Of a DNA stretch of 64,000 nucleotides, positions 511 to 9,267 are shown in pieces (positions within the stretch are counted from its first letter, which is position 1; each line of letters begins with the position of its first letter). The stretch is from Tissierellales bacterium. Lineage in GTDB: Bacteria; Bacillota; Clostridia; Tissierellales; Tissierellaceae. Made by a program: the position numbers and the translations under genes. The stretch lies in NCBI GenBank assembly GCA_014360205.1, contig JACIXZ010000002.1, forward strand, positions 1 to 64,000, written 5' to 3'. A model generated the notes under the pieces. That model ran no database searches. It had not been told where the DNA came from and saw only the letters and a list, made by a program, of their open reading frames with translations.

Positions 511-538
511 AAAAAGGACCTAAATGGCCCTTTTTTTA
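508..538. terminator. Bidirectional terminator between ridA and dacF
   Basis: An A-tract followed by GGACC, a short TAAAT loop, GGCCC and a run of seven T forms a hairpin with one internal mismatch. Read on either strand it ends in a U-run. The ridA stop codon and the dacF stop codon lie at its two edges. Confidence 0.75.
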
Positions 539-1897
539 TTTTGAAATATAATTTATTTCTGGGATAGCATTTCTCTTTCTTCTTCTTTTTTTTCTTATTT
601 TATATTTTTTATATATTCTTTGTAAGATTAAAAAAACTATAATAAACCAGTACCAGTTATTGATAATACCACTAAGGAATCCAGAAGAAGTATCTGCACT
701 TATATCTGTTGATGCTACAATATTAGCTTTACCAAGGTATTCTCCATTTATTAAATAATGAACTTCACCTAATATTTGACCAACAGATATAGGAGCATGT
801 AAGTCTTCATTTAAAACGATTTTTCTTTCAATATTTTCAACATTGTATTTTGACAATGGAAATGCAATGTTTGAGTCTATAATACCAGCTACATAAGGAA
901 TATTTCCTCCTTCAATCGGGATATTATCAATGAATTGATCCTTATAACCAATTACTATATTGTCAAAATTATCAAAACCAAAATTTAACAATTCTATTGT
1001 ATTCTTATAAACTTCATTTCCATTAGCTTTGAGGACTACAGCCAATAATTTTTGACCTTCTTTTTCAGCATAAGAGACTAAACAGTTTTTAGCTTTGCTT
1101 GTATATCCAGTTTTAACGCCTAATGCATATTGGTATTTAATCGGAACTGGTTGACCGTTAATTTCTACTTTCTCAGTACTAAATAGTAATTTATTAGTTG
1201 TTTTAAGATAGCGTGCCTCATTTTTTATATTTGTTGGAGGAATCTCATATGTAACCTTAGTTATTATATTTCTAAATTCATCAAATTGCATTGCATATTG
1301 ACCAATAAGAGCTAGGTCATGAGCAGTGGAAACATGCTCATCTTCGTGCAAGCCATTTGGATTTACGAAATTTGTGTCAACAGCACCAAGTTCTTTTGCT
1401 TTATCGTTCATCATTTTTACAAAAGCATCAACACTACCACCAATATGTTTAGCTATTGCTAAAGCACAATCATTAGCAGATGCTATAAGCATACCATTTA
1501 ATAGTTGTTCTAGGGTTAAGACCTCTCCGACCTCAAGTGCAATATGGCTTCCATATGTTAAGTCAACTACCTCTTGATCAATTATTACATAATCACTTAA
1601 GTTTCCGTGTTCTAAAGCAAGAATAGCTGTCATCATTTTAGTAGTACTAGCAGGATACAATTTCTTATTTATATTTTTTTGATATAATATTTGCCCAGTA
1701 TCATAATCTATTAATATAGCAGCTTCTGCTCCTATATTAAGAGAATTATATGTCTCGTAATTCATCGAATTGCTGGCCAAAACAGATGAACTTAGACTAT
1801 AAGGGTCATCTCGCAACGAAGTTGCAAACGCTTCAGAGAAACTTGTTAGAAGCATTGTAATTGTTAAAATAGCACTAATAATGTTAATTTTTTTCAA
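536..1897 (-). CDS. dacF: D-alanyl-D-alanine carboxypeptidase (DacF-like low-molecular-weight PBP)
   Basis: This 453-residue serine-type D,D-carboxypeptidase of peptidase family S11 trims the terminal D-Ala of peptidoglycan stem peptides outside the membrane. It has an N-terminal signal peptide (about residues 1-26), the catalytic SxxK motif (Ser84-Thr-Thr-Lys87), the SxN motif (Ser140-Ala-Asn142) and the KTG motif (Lys260-Thr-Gly262). A C-terminal PBP5-like domain follows. The chain ends in one membrane helix and a cluster of Lys/Arg, so the protein is probably a membrane-anchored ectoenzyme. The start is TTG (complement of 1895-1897), preceded by GGTGGTGAT. An extended -10 lies upstream on the minus strand. 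Subfamily placement (DacF versus DacA/B) is inference. Confidence 0.93.
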   Translation of the reverse strand: MKKINIISAILTITMLLTSFSEAFATSLRDDPYSLSSSVLASNSMNYETYNSLNIGAEAAILIDYDTGQILYQKNINKKLYPASTTKMMTAILALEHGNLSDYVIIDQEVVDLTYGSHIALEVGEVLTLEQLLNGMLIASANDCALAIAKHIGGSVDAFVKMMNDKAKELGAVDTNFVNPNGLHEDEHVSTAHDLALIGQYAMQFDEFRNIITKVTYEIPPTNIKNEARYLKTTNKLLFSTEKVEINGQPVPIKYQYALGVKTGYTSKAKNCLVSYAEKEGQKLLAVVLKANGNEVYKNTIELLNFGFDNFDNIVIGYKDQFIDNIPIEGGNIPYVAGIIDSNIAFPLSKYNVENIERKIVLNEDLHAPISVGQILGEVHYLINGEYLGKANIVASTDISADTSSGFLSGIINNWYWFIIVFLILQRIYKKYKIRKKRRRKRNAIPEINYISK

Positions 1898-2051: not shown

Positions 2052-2681
2052 GTGGGTTATTTCAGTAAGAGAGAAAAAATATTAATCACGATAATTGCAA
2101 TGTTAATAATTATTATTTTTGTATTTAGAAATCCCTCTGATGATTTAAATGTTGCTAAAGAAAACAATTTGGTAATAATAAATGATGAATCAAAAACAGT
2201 TGAAGAAGAAAAAAATAATGAAGAAATACCTTCTGAAATTATAGTTCATATAAGTGGCCAAGTTTATCAACCGGGAATATATAGACTATTTTCAGGAGAT
2301 AGGGTAATAGATGTAGTTAATTTAGCAGGAGGGCTAACAAAAGATGCTGATTTAGATAAAATTAATTTAGCAAGAAAAATAAGTGATGAAGATAAAATAT
2401 ACATACCTAAAATTGGTGAAGATGTAAATGTAAATTCAAATAACAGCCCCCCTGAATTTATAGAAAGTAAAGATGATAAGACTTCAACTAGCAAAATTAA
2501 CATTAATACATGTTCAAAAGAGGAGCTGGTTAGTTTACCAGGAATAGGGGATGTATTAGCTGATAGAATAATTGAATATAGGAATAAAACAAAGTTTAAT
2601 GAAATAGAAGACATAAAAAAAGTTGCAGGGATAGGAGATGCGAAATTTAATAGCATAAAAGATTTAATAACTACGAAATAA
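2052..2681 (+). CDS. comEA: ComEA family DNA-binding protein (helix-hairpin-helix)
   Basis: This 209-residue membrane-anchored DNA receptor is of the competence/DNA-uptake type. One N-terminal membrane helix (about residues 9-25) is followed by an acidic linker and an SLBB domain (about 62-122, with the VHISGQVYQPGIYRL core). A C-terminal double helix-hairpin-helix module (about 146-209) carries ININTCSKEELVSLPGIG and VAGIG, which bind DNA backbone. It starts at GTG 2052 behind an AGGGGGAA site. selD begins only 11 bp after its stop, so comEA is probably the first gene of a transcript running through the sel genes. Its usual partner comEC lies 6.7 kb downstream instead of next door. Confidence 0.92.
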   Translation: MGYFSKREKILITIIAMLIIIIFVFRNPSDDLNVAKENNLVIINDESKTVEEEKNNEEIPSEIIVHISGQVYQPGIYRLFSGDRVIDVVNLAGGLTKDADLDKINLARKISDEDKIYIPKIGEDVNVNSNNSPPEFIESKDDKTSTSKININTCSKEELVSLPGIGDVLADRIIEYRNKTKFNEIEDIKKVAGIGDAKFNSIKDLITTK

Positions 2682-2692
2682 GAGGTGAGACA

Positions 2693-3727
2693 ATGGATAA
2701 AAGACTTACTCAATTAACAAAGAGTTCTGGGTGAGCTGCTAAAATCGGTCCCGATATACTTGCTCAAGTTTTGAGCAAATTACCCAAAATGCATGATGAA
2801 AGATTATTAGTGGGAATAGATACATCTGATGATGCAGCAGTTTACAAAATTAATGACGAATTAGCGATTATTCAAACTTTAGATTTTTTTACTCCCGTAG
2901 TAGATGATCCATATACATACGGACAGATTGCTGCTACAAATTCTTTAAGTGATGTGTATGCGATGGGTGGAGAACCTACTTTGGCCATGAATATCGTTTG
3001 TTTTCCCGATTGTTTGGATCCAGAAATTCTTTCTGAAATTTTAAAGGGAGGATATGATAAAGTAAAAGAGGCAGGGGCAATCCTAGTAGGAGGGCATAGC
3101 GTTGCTGATGATGAACCTAAATATGGATTGTCTGTTACAGGATTTGTTCATCCTAATAAAGTAAAATCTAATAGTAATGCTAAAATAGGTGATTATTTAG
3201 TTCTAACAAAGCCATTAGGCGTTGGAATAATAAATACTGCGATAAAAGGTGATATAGCAAGCAAAAGTGCATATAATAGATGTGTTGAAGTTATGACAAA
3301 ATTGAATAAATATGCTAAAGAGGCTTGTGATAATTTAAAAGAAATTCATAGTATAACAGACATAACAGGATTTGGTCTGTTAGGTCATGCTTTAGAAATG
3401 GCAGAAGCTAGCGATGTAAGCCTTCTTTTATTTAGTGACAAAATTCACTATATAGAAGAAGCTAAAGATTATGCATCTATGGGGATCATCCCTGCAGGTG
3501 CTTACAAGAATAAAACTCATATTGGAAATAAAGTAGTGTTTAATGAACATGTAGCTCAATATTTAAAAGATATCATGTTTGATCCACAAACATCTGGAGG
3601 ATTATTAATATCTGTGGGAGAGGATGATTTAAATAAACTGGAAATTGGTCTAAAGGAAAGGAATGTGGAGTATAGCATAATAGGCAAAGTAGTAAACAAA
3701 GAAGAATTTAGAATTTATGTTAGCTAG
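2693..3727 (+). CDS. selD: Selenide, water dikinase SelD, selenocysteine-containing (in-frame UGA)
   Basis: SelD makes selenophosphate, the Se donor for Sec-tRNA, from selenide and ATP. The ATG at 2693 has AGAGGTGAG upstream. Reading through TGA 2732-2734 as Sec gives a 344-residue protein with U14 in the motif SSG-U-AAKIGP, where the catalytic Cys (Cys17 of E. coli SelD) normally sits. Downstream the AIR-synthase-type ATP-binding fold is intact: [16 protein letters not shown], the [13 protein letters not shown] loop, [10 protein letters not shown] and DPQTSGG. Ending translation at the TGA or starting after it would remove the Gly-rich N-terminus and catalytic residue. A hairpin follows the TGA at SECIS distance. 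It sits between comEA and selA, 11 and 16 bp away. Confidence 0.95.
2729..2785 (+). promoter_or_regulatory. Putative bacterial SECIS element of selD
   Basis: Just after the UGA codon (2732-2734), positions 2760-2767 and 2771-2778 form a perfect 8-bp stem (TTGCTCAA / TTGAGCAA) closed by a GTT loop, 25 nt beyond the UGA. GGGT at 2729-2732 can pair with ACCC at 2782-2785 as an outer closing helix. Bacterial SECIS elements are hairpins directly downstream of UGA whose apical loop carries a GU recognised by the SelB C-terminal domain. The geometry fits, but exact boundaries need folding. Confidence 0.75.
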
Positions 3728-3743
3728 TAAGGAGAGTGCTTCG

Positions 3744-5150
3744 GTGGTTGAAAAAAAATATTACAAACTAATTCCAAAGGTGGATGAAATATTAAATGAT
3801 GAAAATATTCAAGAGTTGTTAAAATTTATGCCTAGGAAAATAGTTATAGATGCCATAAATGAAGAACTTAATAAAATCAGAACAATCATAAAAATGGGTG
3901 AAGATGAAGCAAAGATAAATTCATATCTAAATAATGTTATTTATAACATAATAGAAAATTGTAAAATTAAGAATAATTTTAATTTGAAGAGAGTTATAAA
4001 TGCTACTGGGATAATAATTCACACAAACTTAGGACGATCTTTATTGAATCCAGAAGTAATTGATAACTTGAAAGAAGTCAGCATTAATTATTCTAATTTA
4101 GAGTTTGATATAGAAAAAGGAACAAGGGGCTCTAGATATTCACATCTTGAACGAATCATATCTCAAGTAACTGGTAGTGAGGCCTCTTTAGTAGTAAACA
4201 ATAATGCTGCTGCAGTATTATTGGTTTTAAGTACATTAGCCAAAAATAAAAAAGTAATTATTTCACGAGGAGAACTTATTGAAATTGGGGGTTCATTTAG
4301 AATACCTGAGGTAATGGAGCAAAGTGGAGCTGTTTTAAAAGAGGTAGGGACCACAAATAAGACTCATTTTGAAGATTATTTGAATGCGATTGATGAGGAT
4401 ACATCATGTATTATGAAAGTGCACACATCAAATTATAAAATACTTGGTTTTACTAGTGATGTACCAATATCTGAACTAAATAAATTAAAAACTGATAAAA
4501 TTTATTTGATAGAAGATCTGGGAAGTGGAGTACTAATAGATCTCTCAAAATACGGGATATGTTATGAACCTACCGTTGCTGAAAGTATAAAAAATGGAGC
4601 AGATATAGTGACTTTTAGCGGAGATAAACTTTTAGGCGGACCTCAAGCTGGAATAATAGTAGGTAAAAAAGAGCTAATAGATAGAATGAAAAGAAATCCT
4701 TTAACAAGGGCACTTAGAGTTGATAAATTTACAATATCTGCATTAGAGAGTACTTTTAGATATTATTTGGATGATGAGATATCAATAGAAAAAATACCTA
4801 CTTTAAAGATGATGATGAAAAGTTTAGAAGAAATAGAAACTCAAGTAAAGAGAGTATTTAAAAAACTTCAAGCAATTATTAATTCGGAAAATATAATTTT
4901 TGGTATTGCCGATGATTTTTCGGAAATAGGGGGAGGTTCATTGCCTCTTGAAAGACTTAGAACTAAATGTTTAACTATAGAAGTTAAAGGAATTAGCATA
5001 GTTGAATTTGAAGATAAACTTAGAAACTATGAAACACCAATCATAACTAGAATATCAAAAGATAAAATTATACTTGACTTCAGAACAATAAGAGAGGACG
5101 AAGAGGATATTTTATTAAAAGCAATTTTATACGCATGTGAGATTATTTAA
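3744..5150 (+). CDS. selA: L-seryl-tRNA(Sec) selenium transferase
   Basis: SelA is a PLP enzyme that converts Ser-tRNA-Sec to Sec-tRNA-Sec using selenophosphate. GTG 3744 is the likely start because AAGGAG (3729-3734) lies 9 nt before it, giving 468 residues, the usual length. An ATG at 3717 would overlap selD and lacks a site. Seen are the N-terminal LPKV-like/VIDAINEEL segment, INATGIIIHTNLGRS, the EFDIEKGTRGSRY tRNA/active-site segment, and the PLP lysine in SGDKLLGGPQAG (about residue 295, matching E. coli Lys295). It lies in the order selD-selA-selB. Confidence 0.97.
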   Translation: MVEKKYYKLIPKVDEILNDENIQELLKFMPRKIVIDAINEELNKIRTIIKMGEDEAKINSYLNNVIYNIIENCKIKNNFNLKRVINATGIIIHTNLGRSLLNPEVIDNLKEVSINYSNLEFDIEKGTRGSRYSHLERIISQVTGSEASLVVNNNAAAVLLVLSTLAKNKKVIISRGELIEIGGSFRIPEVMEQSGAVLKEVGTTNKTHFEDYLNAIDEDTSCIMKVHTSNYKILGFTSDVPISELNKLKTDKIYLIEDLGSGVLIDLSKYGICYEPTVAESIKNGADIVTFSGDKLLGGPQAGIIVGKKELIDRMKRNPLTRALRVDKFTISALESTFRYYLDDEISIEKIPTLKMMMKSLEEIETQVKRVFKKLQAIINSENIIFGIADDFSEIGGGSLPLERLRTKCLTIEVKGISIVEFEDKLRNYETPIITRISKDKIILDFRTIREDEEDILLKAILYACEII

Positions 5151-5167: not shown

Positions 5168-7081
5168 ATGAATCATATTATCATTGGAACAGCTGGGCAT
5201 ATAGATCATGGGAAAACTACTTTAATAAAAGCTCTAACTGGTAGAGAAACAGACAGATTAAAAGAAGAGAAAGAAAGGGGTATTTCGATAGAGTTAGGGT
5301 TTACTTATTTTGATTTGCCTAGTGGCCAGAGAGCTGGCATTATAGATGTTCCAGGTCATGAGAAATTTATCAGGAATATGCTGGCAGGTGTAGTAGGAAT
5401 AGATTTAATACTTTTTGTAGTAGCGGCAGATGAGGGAGTTATGCCTCAAACTTTAGAACACTTAGCCATTTTAGATTTAATAGGAGTTAAAAAAGGATTT
5501 ATTGTTATCACTAAAGCTGATTTAGTAGATGAAGAATGGCTGGAACTTGTGAAAGAGGAGATAAAAGAAAGTGTCCAAGGAACATTTTTAGAAAATTCTA
5601 AAATGATACCTGTTTCTAGTACAAAAAAAACAGGGATTGATGAAGTAATTGAAGAAATAGATAAACTATCTAATTCTATAGAACAAAAGGATATAAATGA
5701 TTTACCTAGGCTTCCTATAGACAGAGTATTTACTATTCAGGGTTTTGGAACTGTTGTAACAGGAACTCTTTTAAGTGGTAGACTAAAGGTGGGAGATGAG
5801 GTTGAAATATTTCCAAAATCAATTACTTCCAGAATTCGAAACTTACAGGTTCATGAAATTGATGTAAAAGAAGCTTATGCAGGGCAAAGAGTAGCCGTCA
5901 ATCTCTCTAATGTAAAGAAGAACGAGATAAGCAGAGGAGATTGTTTAGCTCTAACTGGGACTATGAAGGAAACAATGATGCTAGATGTAAAAGTTAAATT
6001 AATCAAAAACCTTGATAGACATATAGAAAATAGAACTCGATTAAAGCTATACCTTGGAACAGATGAAATAATGTGCAGGATGATATTATTAGATAGAGAC
6101 TTTCTAGAACCTGGAGAAGAAGCATTTGCTCAACTTAGACTAGAAGAAAAAACAGTGGCAAAAGCAAAAGATAGATTTATTTTGCGTTTTTTTTCACCAA
6201 TGTTCACAATTGGAGGCGGCGAAGTATTAGTTGCGAATCCAAAGAAAAGGAAAAGATATGATGAAAATATATTAGAAGAACTTTCCGTAAAAGATGAGGG
6301 AAGCATTTCAGATCATATAGAAAGCTTACTAAAAGCTGAGAAGGACATTTTTTACAATATCAAGGAGATTTCTACTGAATTATCATTATTAGAAGATAAA
6401 TGCTTAGAGGAAGTAAAAAAATTAGAAATTGCTAGAAAAGCTACTGTGTTTGAATTAAACAGAGAAATTTATCCAATCCATGAAACAAAGCTAAATGAAT
6501 TGACAAAAACTATAACAAAAGAATTGTTAGAATTTCATAATAAATACCCATTAAGGTATGGAATCCCAAAAGAAGAGATTCGAGCAAAATATCTCGGGAA
6601 GAATAAACAAAAGTTAGGAGATATGATCATTGATTATTTAATAAGCCAAAAGGAAATCAAACAATATAAAGATTTGCTATCCCTTCCTGACTTTACTCCT
6701 AGTTTGTCAGATGAAGAAAAAGAATTAAAAGAGAAGATCATTAGATTTTTAGAAACGAAGGAATACAATTTAACTAAAATAGAAGAAGTATTCGAAAACA
6801 ACAAAAGTATAAATAAGAATAAGCTTGAAGATTTAATATTTTTTATGATTAATACTGCTGATATAATTAAGATAGCAGATAGTTATCTAATAAGTTCAAA
6901 TAAGTATAATGATGCTAGATCGATTCTTAAGACATATTTGCTAGAAAACGAATATATAACTGCTTCAACATATAGAGATTTGTTAAATACAAATCGGAAA
7001 GTTGCTATATCATTACTTGAACATTTTGATCAAATTAAGTTTACCAGAAGAGATGGAGATAAAAGATATCTAATAGGATGA
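5168..7081 (+). CDS. selB: Selenocysteine-specific translation elongation factor SelB
   Basis: SelB carries Sec-tRNA-Sec to UGA codons marked by a SECIS hairpin. At 637 residues it is full length. The N-terminal EF-Tu-like GTPase has G1 GHIDHGKTT (residues 10-18), G3 DVPGHEKF and G4 TKAD. Two beta-barrel domains follow (with IQGFGTVVTGT), then a C-terminal array of winged-helix repeats (about residues 380-637) that binds the SECIS RNA. It lies 17 bp after selA and 13 bp before the response regulator, suggesting one transcript. The start ATG follows GGGGAG. Confidence 0.97.
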   Translation: MNHIIIGTAGHIDHGKTTLIKALTGRETDRLKEEKERGISIELGFTYFDLPSGQRAGIIDVPGHEKFIRNMLAGVVGIDLILFVVAADEGVMPQTLEHLAILDLIGVKKGFIVITKADLVDEEWLELVKEEIKESVQGTFLENSKMIPVSSTKKTGIDEVIEEIDKLSNSIEQKDINDLPRLPIDRVFTIQGFGTVVTGTLLSGRLKVGDEVEIFPKSITSRIRNLQVHEIDVKEAYAGQRVAVNLSNVKKNEISRGDCLALTGTMKETMMLDVKVKLIKNLDRHIENRTRLKLYLGTDEIMCRMILLDRDFLEPGEEAFAQLRLEEKTVAKAKDRFILRFFSPMFTIGGGEVLVANPKKRKRYDENILEELSVKDEGSISDHIESLLKAEKDIFYNIKEISTELSLLEDKCLEEVKKLEIARKATVFELNREIYPIHETKLNELTKTITKELLEFHNKYPLRYGIPKEEIRAKYLGKNKQKLGDMIIDYLISQKEIKQYKDLLSLPDFTPSLSDEEKELKEKIIRFLETKEYNLTKIEEVFENNKSINKNKLEDLIFFMINTADIIKIADSYLISSNKYNDARSILKTYLLENEYITASTYRDLLNTNRKVAISLLEHFDQIKFTRRDGDKRYLIG

Positions 7082-7094
7082 TTGAGGTGAGTCC

Positions 7095-7805
7095 ATGGGA
7101 GAGAAAATATTATTATTAGATCCTGACAAAAATTTTACTAAAACTTTAAAGTATAGCTTTGAACAAGATAGCTTTCAAATAGATGTATTGCCAGATTGCG
7201 AAAATATTATTGATCTAATTGAAAAGAAACATTACGATATATTAGTAACAGAGCTTCAGCTATTAAAATCAAGTGGTTTATCTATATGCCAAAGTGTTAG
7301 AAGTTTTTCAAACATACCTATTATATTCATTTCAATGGTAAATGATGATATAAAAAAGATACTTGCGTTTGAGTATGGAGCAGATGATTATCTAGTAAAA
7401 CCTTTTAACATATTAGAACTAAAAGCTCGAATTAAGGCAATACTTAGAAGGACATCTAATCTAAATTACGATAGGAATAACGAAACTATTGAGATTTCAG
7501 ATATTAAAATATATACAATTGGCAGAAAAATAACAAAAGCTGGGCAAGAAATAACTTTAACAGGTAAAGAATTTGATTTGATGTATGTTTTAGCTTCTAA
7601 CCCTGGAAAGATATTCACAAGGGAGGAATTATTAGAAAAAGTATGGGGATATGCATACTATGGGGACTTAAGAACTGTAGATGTACATATCCGAAGGATT
7701 AGGGAAAAGATTGAGGAAAATCCTAAGGACTCTCAGTATATTTTGACCAAGTGGGGAGTAGGATATTATTTTAAAGAAAAAGGGGTTAGCAGTATTTCCC
7801 CGTGA
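7095..7805 (+). CDS. Atypical OmpR/PhoB-family response regulator with Asp-to-Glu at the phosphorylation site
   Basis: This 236-residue two-domain regulator has a receiver domain (about 1-120) and a winged-helix DNA-binding domain (about 135-230) of OmpR/PhoB type: LTGKEFDLMYVLASNPGKIF, REELLEKVWGY and DVHIRRIREKIE. In the receiver the expected phospho-acceptor Asp is Glu53 (in YDILVTELQL; codon GAG 7251-7253). The acidic pocket is D9-P-D11, and the switch Ser (PIIFIS) and Lys (YLVKPF) are kept. No histidine kinase gene is nearby. Glu at this site often mimics phosphorylation, so it may be permanently active or phosphorylation-independent; that is inference. It follows selB by 13 bp in the sel operon and precedes selC. 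Its targets are unknown. Confidence 0.9.
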   Translation: MGEKILLLDPDKNFTKTLKYSFEQDSFQIDVLPDCENIIDLIEKKHYDILVTELQLLKSSGLSICQSVRSFSNIPIIFISMVNDDIKKILAFEYGADDYLVKPFNILELKARIKAILRRTSNLNYDRNNETIEISDIKIYTIGRKITKAGQEITLTGKEFDLMYVLASNPGKIFTREELLEKVWGYAYYGDLRTVDVHIRRIREKIEENPKDSQYILTKWGVGYYFKEKGVSSISP

Positions 7806-7903
7806 TAGATAAAATTTAAGTATAAGTAATTGAAATTTGAAAATAATTTTTAGAGTTAAATTTATATTTTCTCTTTGTATTACAAAAATATAATGTATAA
7901 TCC

Positions 7904-7931
7904 TTGACAACTAATTATAGTATGCTATACT
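7904..7931 (+). promoter_or_regulatory. Promoter of selC
   Basis: A perfect TTGACA (7904-7909) is separated by 16 bp from TATACT (7926-7931). A TG dinucleotide one base before the -10 makes it an extended -10 as well. It points at the tRNA-Sec gene starting 18 bp downstream of the -10. Confidence 0.85.
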
Positions 7932-7949
7932 AATTAAGTGCAAAAATAA

Positions 7950-8046
7950 GGGAGTAGATGGGTGCTGGTGTGCCCTCTGGTCTTCAAAACCAGCGCGAGG
8001 GGTTAGGAGCCTCTTGGGTGGGTTCGATTCCCACATACTCCCGCCA
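7950..8046 (+). tRNA. selC: tRNA-Sec (anticodon TCA)
   Basis: This 97-nt tRNA has an encoded CCA (8044-8046) and anticodon TCA (7984-7986) in a CTTCAAA loop on a 5-bp stem (7977-7981/7989-7993). The D-stem is 6 bp with a 4-nt TGGT loop, the hallmark of bacterial tRNA-Sec. A long variable arm (GAGG/CCTC) and a 5-bp T-stem with TTCGATT loop follow. Seven acceptor pairs are perfect; the expected eighth would be G7957 opposite A8035. It has its own promoter and ends 6 bp from the stop codon of the convergent alaX-like gene. Confidence 0.97.
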
Positions 8047-8052
8047 CAAAAC

Positions 8053-9267
8053 TTATTTAGCATTTAAACTTTTTATGATGTTTGAAATTACATCATTAAT
8101 AAATGATTCTTTATGATCTTTTCTAATATTTCCTTGGATATTATGAGTGTTTCCACCACCTTTTATTTCGTATTTTTTTGAGAGCTCGTAGAAGATAGTT
8201 TTCAAATCTAAATCAAGGTCTTTAGGTGAAGAAATATTAAATTGTATGCAATTATTTGATTCAAATGTATATATTTGGAATATATTTTGTTCACAAGATG
8301 TGACATAATGTTTAATATCATCCAGATAATTATAATCATCAGCATCTAAAGATTTAATTACAAAATTAAGTCTTGCAATTGTCTTTAAATTGGATAAAAT
8401 TTCTTCAGCTTTTAATTTTATAATACTTTTTTTAAGTTCTTTTAATTGTTTTTCTAAAATTTTATTATTCTCTTGAATTTCTAATACTTTTTTTAGAACA
8501 TCGTTCTCATTTGCTGATAGATTTTTTCTAATGTTTTCTATTAAAGAATATATAGACAGATAATTATTAAGCGCCCTTTGTCCTGCAATAAATTTTAATC
8601 TAATAGTAGATCTAACTTTTTCAAACCCAACTATTTTAATGATTCCAATTTCTCCTGTTGAAGAAACATGAGTACCAGCACATATTGAATAATCTAAACC
8701 ATCAATCTCAACTATTCTAATATTCTCATCAATATTTATTTTTTTCCTTATAGGTATTTTTTCTAATTTGTCTGGGGTTACTATATACGAACTAACTTTG
8801 AAATTTGATTGAACGATTTTATTTGCTAATAGCTCAGCTTTTTCAATTTCCTTTTCTGTAATCTCTTTAGTTGATATGTCGATTGTACTATATTTTGATC
8901 CAAGATGAAAGCTCTCAGTCTGCCAGTTAAATATATTCAAAAAAGCTTTTGAAAGTACATGCTGAGCAGTATGTTGTTGCATATGATCAAATCTTCTTTC
9001 CATATCTATTGATAGTTTTACATCAAGAGTATCAATATTTTCATTTAGAACATGAACAATATCAAGACCATCTTCATATACATCCTGAACCTCAATATTA
9101 TTTATATATCCAACATCTCTTGGTTGACCACCTGATTGATCTGGATAAAAAATAGTTCTGTTCAATTTCAAATAACATTTACCATCTTTTAAATATTTTT
9201 CGGTGACATAGGCATCAATATAGGATAAGTATGGATTTTCCCAGTATAATCTTTCCGTCATATACAA
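8053..9267 (-). CDS. AlaX-type alanyl-tRNA editing protein with DHHA1 domain
   Basis: This 404-residue stand-alone editing protein is related to the C-terminal half of AlaRS. Such proteins hydrolyse Ser or Gly mischarged on tRNA-Ala. The N-terminal beta-barrel carries YPDQSGGQPRD. The editing domain has the zinc-site motifs HTAQH and CAGTH, both complete. A coiled coil follows (about 240-300) and then a DHHA1 domain ending in GGGNTHNIQG. This is the long AlaX (AlaX-L-like) architecture. The start is TTG (complement of 9265-9267) with AAAGGAG 5 nt upstream; an ATG two codons in is possible. It is tail-to-tail with selC, 6 bp apart. Confidence 0.9.
   Translation of the reverse strand: MYMTERLYWENPYLSYIDAYVTEKYLKDGKCYLKLNRTIFYPDQSGGQPRDVGYINNIEVQDVYEDGLDIVHVLNENIDTLDVKLSIDMERRFDHMQQHTAQHVLSKAFLNIFNWQTESFHLGSKYSTIDISTKEITEKEIEKAELLANKIVQSNFKVSSYIVTPDKLEKIPIRKKINIDENIRIVEIDGLDYSICAGTHVSSTGEIGIIKIVGFEKVRSTIRLKFIAGQRALNNYLSIYSLIENIRKNLSANENDVLKKVLEIQENNKILEKQLKELKKSIIKLKAEEILSNLKTIARLNFVIKSLDADDYNYLDDIKHYVTSCEQNIFQIYTFESNNCIQFNISSPKDLDLDLKTIFYELSKKYEIKGGGNTHNIQGNIRKDHKESFINDVISNIIKSLNAK

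Follow-up and report, generated by a model that had tools for sequence, protein, structure and literature searches.

An orphan response regulator with a degenerate receiver in the selenocysteine locus of a Tissierellales bacterium, probably the surviving half of an older two-component system

Pseudo-receivers that carry glutamate in place of the phosphorylatable aspartate are well known (PMC12632262, PMC12548384, PMC4395418), and what turns a pseudo-receiver on or off has been called a mystery in the accessible part of PMC12632262. Glutamate is the commonest substitute in aspartate-less receivers (26%) and occupies the acceptor site of ChxR, according to the accessible part of PMC4395418. The pocket of CmrT consists of D9-G10-D11-E53-T80-K102, with direct hydrogen bonds in the structure 2QZJ, and constitutive activity was inferred for the protein; in the accessible part of that paper, dimerization was reduced by D9A and K102A but not substantially altered by E53A or T80A (PMC12548384). 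Among transcription factors associated with selenium genes, LysR_Se was proposed from its position beside selA/selB/selD; it belongs to the LysR family, whereas the protein described here is a response regulator, and the term "response regulator" is absent from the accessible main text of that comparative-genomics paper (PMC5322559). Among the matches listed in the accessible open-licence literature, no response regulator beside sel genes was described. A first-pass annotation of the present DNA, which knew of no described regulator of this type in a sel locus, agrees with those sources as to the position, none having been seen adjacent to sel genes in them, but not as to the pocket type, which is known from CmrT and ChxR.

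The 64,000-nt stretch of DNA analyzed here (the window) contains, at 7095..7805 on the + strand, a gene for a 236-aa OmpR/PhoB-type response regulator (RR), which Pfam and its orthologues indicate to have a degenerate receiver (pseudo-receiver) and an intact winged-helix DNA-binding domain. Response_reg (66.4 bits) and Trans_reg_C (106.6 bits) both exceeded the Pfam cut-off, placing the protein in the OmpR/PhoB type, whereas its best NCBIfam match, WalR, reached 214.5 bits, below the NF040534 cut-off of 340 bits, so that the protein does not qualify as WalR/YycF. The closest named relative, from Soehngenia longivitae, was 86% identical. In the predicted structure, strands and helices followed one another as in a receiver (mean pLDDT, 86; pTM, 0.55), the best 50 Foldseek matches listed were all response regulators of the same type or their domains, and the atypical orphan regulator structure 2hqr appeared among both the sequence and the fold matches. 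Receivers bind their metal through a pair of acids at residues 9 and 10. The window RR has D9-P10-D11 (codons 7119..7127, +), with proline in place of the second Mg-binding aspartate, and direct reading of the GAG codon at 7251..7253 (+) gives Glu53 at the phospho-acceptor position, a residue common to all three genomes searched of the window genus. The second metal acid is therefore gone as well as the acceptor Asp, and the protein combines a receiver fold with an aspartate-less pocket instead of the acid pair at 9-10 and Asp53 of a canonical phospho-receiver. In the orthologue alignment, D11 stands where kinase-linked orthologues have Glu. The Thr/Ser switch residue Ser80 (7332..7334, +) and the conserved active-site Lys102 (7398..7400, +) were both identified from the sequence and alignment. 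Residues 190-207 (7662..7715, +), which we take to be the DNA-recognition helix region, were nearly unchanged relative to kinase-linked orthologues. The first-pass annotation had read Glu53, the Lys and Ser switch residues, and an acidic pocket of D9-P-D11 correctly, but left the loss of the second metal acid unsaid.

The RR lies 3′ of a row of genes for which we presume the names selA, selD, comEA, and dacF-like. A dacF-like D-Ala-D-Ala carboxypeptidase gene (536..1897, −), divergent from comEA in many relatives, is followed by comEA (2052..2681, +), which neighbors the RR in many other Clostridia, and by selD (2771..3727, +), selA (3717..5150, +), and selB (5168..7081, +). As had been noted before, the RR begins 13 bp 3′ of selB and lies 5′ of selC (tRNA-Sec; 7950..8046, +), at a distance of 144 bp. 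The gap between the RR and selC (7806..7949, +), which in kinase-bearing families is the place of a histidine kinase and, as a rule, of a Germane-domain gene, held no detectable kinase remnant. The best site of a promoter-like scan was directly 5′ of selC (7904-7931), in a scan that gave no excess over shuffles (25 versus 33.9). Beyond selC, on the opposite strand, lies an open reading frame (ORF; 8053-9267) that we take to encode an AlaX-like alanyl-tRNA editing protein, found near comEC in several relatives. In the host genome, ten RR matches were obtained, of which six were full-length OmpR-type RRs; five of these adjoin a histidine kinase, and the window RR alone does not. A HATPase_c search returned 12 matches genome-wide, none of them inside the 64,000-nt window. 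The earlier description of an orphan with no kinase gene within 64 kb thus holds by gene position across the genome as well. A 43% paralogue of the window RR has its own adjacent kinase, and we infer that it is the closer WalR candidate.

To what extent the RR accompanies sel genes was assessed in 249 genomes of the order, searched with a family RR and with SelB; 124 RR orthologues were picked by eye from the search listing (weakest E, 2.5e-64). The sel linkage is real and old: 116 of the 124 lie on the strand of selB and begin −200 to 400 bp beyond it. Two RRs were on a contig other than that of selB, one of them (G127) after selD. The other six had no selB position in this tally; among them, SelB was present in the RR genomes G041 and G042, the RR of the latter adjoining selB, and the SelB search within the order gave no match in the RR genomes G001, G040, G195, and G203, of which G001, G195, and G203 are drafts (87, 97, and 87% complete, respectively). 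Three genomes, G021, G044, and G045, kept selDAB with no RR beside it, and comEA-selDAB was retained in G044 (family f8). In family f12, diverged RRs (41-43%) followed selB in four genomes with selDAB together (G114, G151, G153, and G155) and were left out of the linkage count and all residue counts; the other 14 f12 loci had selB in a different context with no RR directly 3′, and in G112 an RR of 28% lay three genes beyond selB, together with a kinase. At the f12 loci L324-L337, selB, mostly with selA, was located elsewhere in the genome and lacked adjacent comEA or RR, for which relocation or horizontal transfer is possible. The selB gene 5′ of the RR was read as two ORFs at L126 (G017) and L231 (G137), a possible frameshift or split gene. 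A tRNA-Sec was found at 62 of 123 loci, always 3′ of the RR and on the same strand: directly 3′ of the RR at 16/26 f1 loci and at the single locus of f5, and 3′ of the Germane gene at 6/6 f16 loci and at one or two loci each of f2, f11, f14, and f18. A tRNA-Sec was predicted in G203 (L220) at 5401-5498, 51 bp after the RR, in the 87%-complete draft in which no SelB was found; it is possibly a relic of a lost selDAB block around the RR.

Comparison of 123 orthologous loci, from families of the order and 20 loci fetched from outside it, pointed to an older system with a kinase. Rows dropped from this comparison were the second RR of G026 (L135), L298 (kinase and Germane gene with no RR called), and L318 and L319 (no RR); the truncated G006 (L139) was left out of residue counts and the tree, and eight loci that stop too soon after the RR for the presence of a kinase to be decided were listed apart, seven of them counting in the family pocket tallies. 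In 14 of 19 sampled families of the order, the gene after the RR encodes a protein of ~460-506 aa, apart from one shorter case where the contig ends; the one member of these RR-linked proteins that was scanned had the Cache_WalK, HAMP, HisKA, and HATPase_c domains of a WalK-like histidine kinase. A Germane-domain protein came next in 44 of 50 kinase-linked loci, and D9, D10, E11, D53, T80, and K102 were invariant in the RRs of all 50. Among the 20 loci from outside the order, one yielded no RR, two had selDAB before it (G451 and G570, the latter with one gene separating selD from selA), and 17 were locally free of sel genes. Kinase and Germane genes followed the RR in 16 of these 17, the seventeenth ending too soon; comEA directly preceded the RR in 10, nine of which had the full order comEA-RR-kinase-Germane and one of which was a comEA-RR pair at a contig end. 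Within the order, selDAB lies before the RR system and selC often after it. On an RR tree rooted on the outside-order loci, sel linkage was gained once and lost three times, and comEA-RR-kinase-Germane appears, from gene order and this tree, to be the older arrangement.

The kinase has been lost from part of this group. No kinase followed the RR in the 65 loci of families f1, f12, f15, and f17 with a long enough contig. In 71 downstream stretches (≤1.5 kb, some cut by contig ends), no convincing kinase or Germane remnant was found, compared with 32/32 controls in which the genes were recovered; four weak matches had E values of 0.26-0.93 (best kinase, 0.93; best Germane, 0.26). A kinase orthologue was not found elsewhere in 14 kinase-less genomes searched, where the best kinase match per genome showed either 28-34% identity with most of the length aligned or 41-48% with just the C-terminal core aligned; in G213 there was no kinase match at E 1e-45, whereas the control G183 gave 60% at full length. 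Kinase presence changed twice on the RR tree, both times by loss, on a quickly built tree in which 34 of 118 inner branches are starred, f1 and f12 are not cleanly split, and the long rows of G001 and G113 join suspiciously. The comparison of kinase-bearing with kinase-less loci counts related genomes as separate rows and rests on these two losses, and an independent-pairs test of kinase against pocket yielded only two pairs, putting significance out of reach. With the kinase and Germane genes gone in the window lineage, the RR came to lie directly between selB and selC. The median selB-RR gap, on start codons as called by script, was 69.5 bp with a kinase (n = 34), 17 bp in f1 (n = 24), 19.5 bp in f17 (n = 18), and 1 bp in f12 (n = 11), and it was not shrunk in the kinase-less f15 (107 bp; n = 13). 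Loss of the kinase as a consequence of lost sporulation, via the Germane protein, was considered but is not supported by the distribution of Spo0A_C: it had no match in the window genus (3/3 genomes) or in the eight genomes of the kinase-bearing f6 and was found in many kinase-less f1, f15, and f17 genomes.

The phosphorylation pocket has decayed in the window's kinase-less lineage (f1, f12, f17, and f5; 56 RRs with data, related rows whose counts are not independent). D9, D10, and D53 occurred together in none of the 56. The commonest change was loss of Asp10, in 53 (to Glu in two), leaving D10 in three; residue 53 was Asp in 31, Glu in 19, and Asn, Gly, or Ser in six; T/S80 was kept in 53 and K102 in 49. 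In f17, the metal acids were broken while Asp53 was still present in 16 of 18. Glu, Asn, Gly, or Ser at position 53 was found in f1, f12, and f5 and, in f15 and f17, in one member each. D9, T/S80, and K102 are kept by every one of the 20 proteins with Glu53 (one in f15), and T/S80 was lost in three of the six proteins with Asn, Gly, or Ser53. Parsimony placed 14 changes at the acceptor site, ~7-8 of them from D to E. The first-pass annotation had made Glu the defining feature, which these counts do not bear out, Asp being more frequent at the site and Asp10 loss being the commoner change; as 31 of the 56 kinase-less relatives have Asp53, Glu is not required. In the same annotation, Asp at the site in most relatives, together with a lack of sel linkage, was to speak against its proposal; Asp is indeed found in most (96/122), but the linkage is strong. 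A conserved Glu53 hallmark was rejected: although all three genomes of the genus have it and it is frequent in sister genera, D-to-E recurred among the 14 changes. Because Glu is the commonest substitute and the change is conservative, a selective excess of Glu53 is not shown. Family f15, which lost the kinase, retained the full D9/D10/D53 pocket in 13 of 15; loci such as L226, L227, L308, and L316 combine a fully intact pocket with no adjacent kinase. The orphan state alone thus does not force decay, given this intact pocket and the unshrunk gap, and cross-phosphorylation is possible; because no kinase orthologue was found elsewhere in the f15 genomes G213, G214, and G215, another kinase or donor may serve these RRs. 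Across f1 and f17, the derived residues D11 (98%), A91 (100%), G157 (93%), and E81 (63%; M81 in the window itself) suggest, as an alignment-based reading, a receiver that was remodeled rather than merely eroded.

The output side has been conserved. Among 43 f1 and f17 rows, the receiver had a mean identity of 0.58, the DNA-binding domain one of 0.71, and the surroundings of the recognition helix one of 0.90, compared with 0.82, 0.86, and 0.98, respectively, among 32 kinase-linked RRs of the order; values were lower in f12 (0.45, 0.57, and 0.70). R193, T194, D196, V197, H198, R200, R201, R203, and K205 were identical in 75/75 rows (f1, f17, and kinase-linked). Of the residues that we assume to make up the α4-β5-α5 dimer face, G95, D97, Y99, R118, and R119 were conserved in 100% of the 43 f1 and f17 rows and K88, E93, and D98 in 86-98%. 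The dN/dS of the RR was 0.033 in the one genus pair with unsaturated dS, indicating strong purifying selection, and its pN (0.03-0.08 within the genus) was below that of each of eight other genes measured in all three pairs. A search for a WalR-type or direct-repeat operator in 62 dacF-comEA intergenic regions (three of zero length) found no DNA-binding site: what we take to be the WalR consensus matched 1/62 regions, where mononucleotide shuffles averaged 0.27, and no repeat was common to more than four regions.

With moderate confidence, these comparisons lead us to favor a phosphorylation-independent pseudo-receiver, left over from an old two-component system, that would act on ancestral DNA sites and be controlled by its amount. 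The window RR is probably a permanently "on" leftover with its own job rather than a selenium switch. The old system of a WalR-like regulator and a WalK-like kinase has lost the kinase and the Germane gene in the window lineage. E53, D9, D11, S80, and K102 may hydrogen-bond directly, by analogy with the CmrT receiver, and such bonds could hold the α4-β5-α5 dimer in an active-like state that needs neither phosphate nor Mg. The protein would then bind the DNA sites of the ancestral system, its activity being set by the amount made, mainly from the comEA-selDAB transcript, and the ancestral regulon would more likely concern the envelope, DNA uptake, or the cell wall than selenium. The dimer, the ancestral sites, and control by amount are drawn from the CmrT parallel. 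Independence of phosphorylation, as the first-pass annotation had proposed, is likely. Short selB-RR gaps in f1, f17, and f12 fit operon control, but the gap of 107 bp in the kinase-less f15 does not, and the accessible part of PMC12548384 reports that E53A alone did not abolish CmrT function, which counts against our explanation, as do Asp53 in 31 of the 56 kinase-less relatives, the intact pockets of f15, and the fruitless search for a DNA-binding site.

Control of the sel genes, also proposed earlier, has been weakened by sel-free RR loci and by selDAB loci that have no RR. A selenium-status regulator would be made in proportion to selDAB expression and control sel or selenoprotein genes, hence its nesting between selB and selC; the position directly after selB in 116/124 order orthologues, the same-strand, 3′ location of selC wherever a tRNA-Sec was found (62 of 123 loci), and the tight selB spacing in the window's lineage are in keeping with it. 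We nevertheless regard it as unlikely: the 17 outside loci with no adjacent selB show no other sel genes at that place, 10 of them having comEA before the RR; G021, G044, and G045 keep selDAB with no RR beside it; and the G001, G195, and G203 drafts keep the RR with no SelB found, which speaks against the confinement to genomes with selenocysteine genes that a dedicated sel-operon regulator would show. It is likewise doubtful that the whole order keeps the RR between selB and selC because its amount follows selDAB transcription and so signals the capacity for selenocysteine; if true, the operon would have taken over as input once the kinase was deleted, and a phosphorylation switch would have given way to a regulator that acts on selenium-linked or competence genes through its dosage. 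Taken together, a sel-specific role of the window RR is not favored, and judging from its relatives, an older, non-selenium regulon is likeliest.

Other accounts keep an input at the receiver. The window RR might still be switched covalently, either at its remaining residues, by acetyl-phosphate or a kinase other than its own, or by a serine/threonine kinase, as could be imagined from the five other RR-linked kinases in the host genome and from the f15 relatives that keep a full pocket with no adjacent kinase; the missing acceptor Asp and second metal acid make this improbable. That the degenerate pocket senses a ligand, redox state, or partner protein, as proposed for RitR-like and other pseudo-receivers, would agree with derived residues 11, 91, 157, and 81 being widespread across f1 and f17 rather than random, and RitR mutants had the highest query TM-scores among the Foldseek matches listed (0.62-0.65), although these scores hinge on a domain arrangement that is uncertain in the model (pTM, 0.55). 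No binding motif was noticed, and we hold such a sensor to be rather unlikely. Losses of the kinase and active-site residues would also be expected of a decaying, non-functional gene, a reading that the unchanged recognition helix and the purifying selection on the RR (the dN/dS of the one unsaturated pair and the lowest pN of nine genes) contradict and that we consider very improbable. The locus forms a graded series within one order: an intact pair, a kinase-less RR with an intact pocket, broken metal acids, and a replaced Asp53. Because intact and broken forms share a nearly unchanged recognition helix, their activities are comparable on the same DNA. The locus also suggests that a place inside a sel operon throughout an order does not by itself make a gene a selenium gene.

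Among known systems, WalR/YycF of WalRK provides the best NCBIfam match, and the related kinase scanned has the WalK Cache domain, but the window RR falls below the cut-off and the host genome has a closer WalR candidate with an adjacent kinase. C. difficile CD1688 was rejected as a known orthologue and set apart by description, as the accessible part of PMC9380558 names other neighbors and neither comEA nor selB. Campylobacter CosR/CosS offers a parallel in that the kinase gene varies between species and the acceptor Asp is lost where the kinase is absent; however, the substitute is Asn rather than Glu, and the split lies inside one genus (accessible part of PMC3938529), whereas the changes around the window RR run through several families, with the kinase lost twice and, by parsimony, the acceptor site changed 14 times. 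ChxR of Chlamydia and HP1043/HsrA of Helicobacter are likewise OmpR/PhoB-type regulators, reported in the accessible descriptions to be active in the unphosphorylated state, but they belong to other lineages and are likened here by description. The closest resemblance in the pocket is to CmrT of Clostridioides difficile, an OmpR-family protein with a natural Glu53, D9-x-D11, T/S80, and K102, all of which the window RR shares; 2QZJ and the window receiver align at E 6e-22, and their DxD, Glu, and Lys fall at matching positions. CmrT is encoded together with the canonical CmrR and a kinase in cmrRST, whereas the window RR stands alone, in a sel locus and in another (RR-kinase-Germane) family, so that the comparison covers the receivers only.
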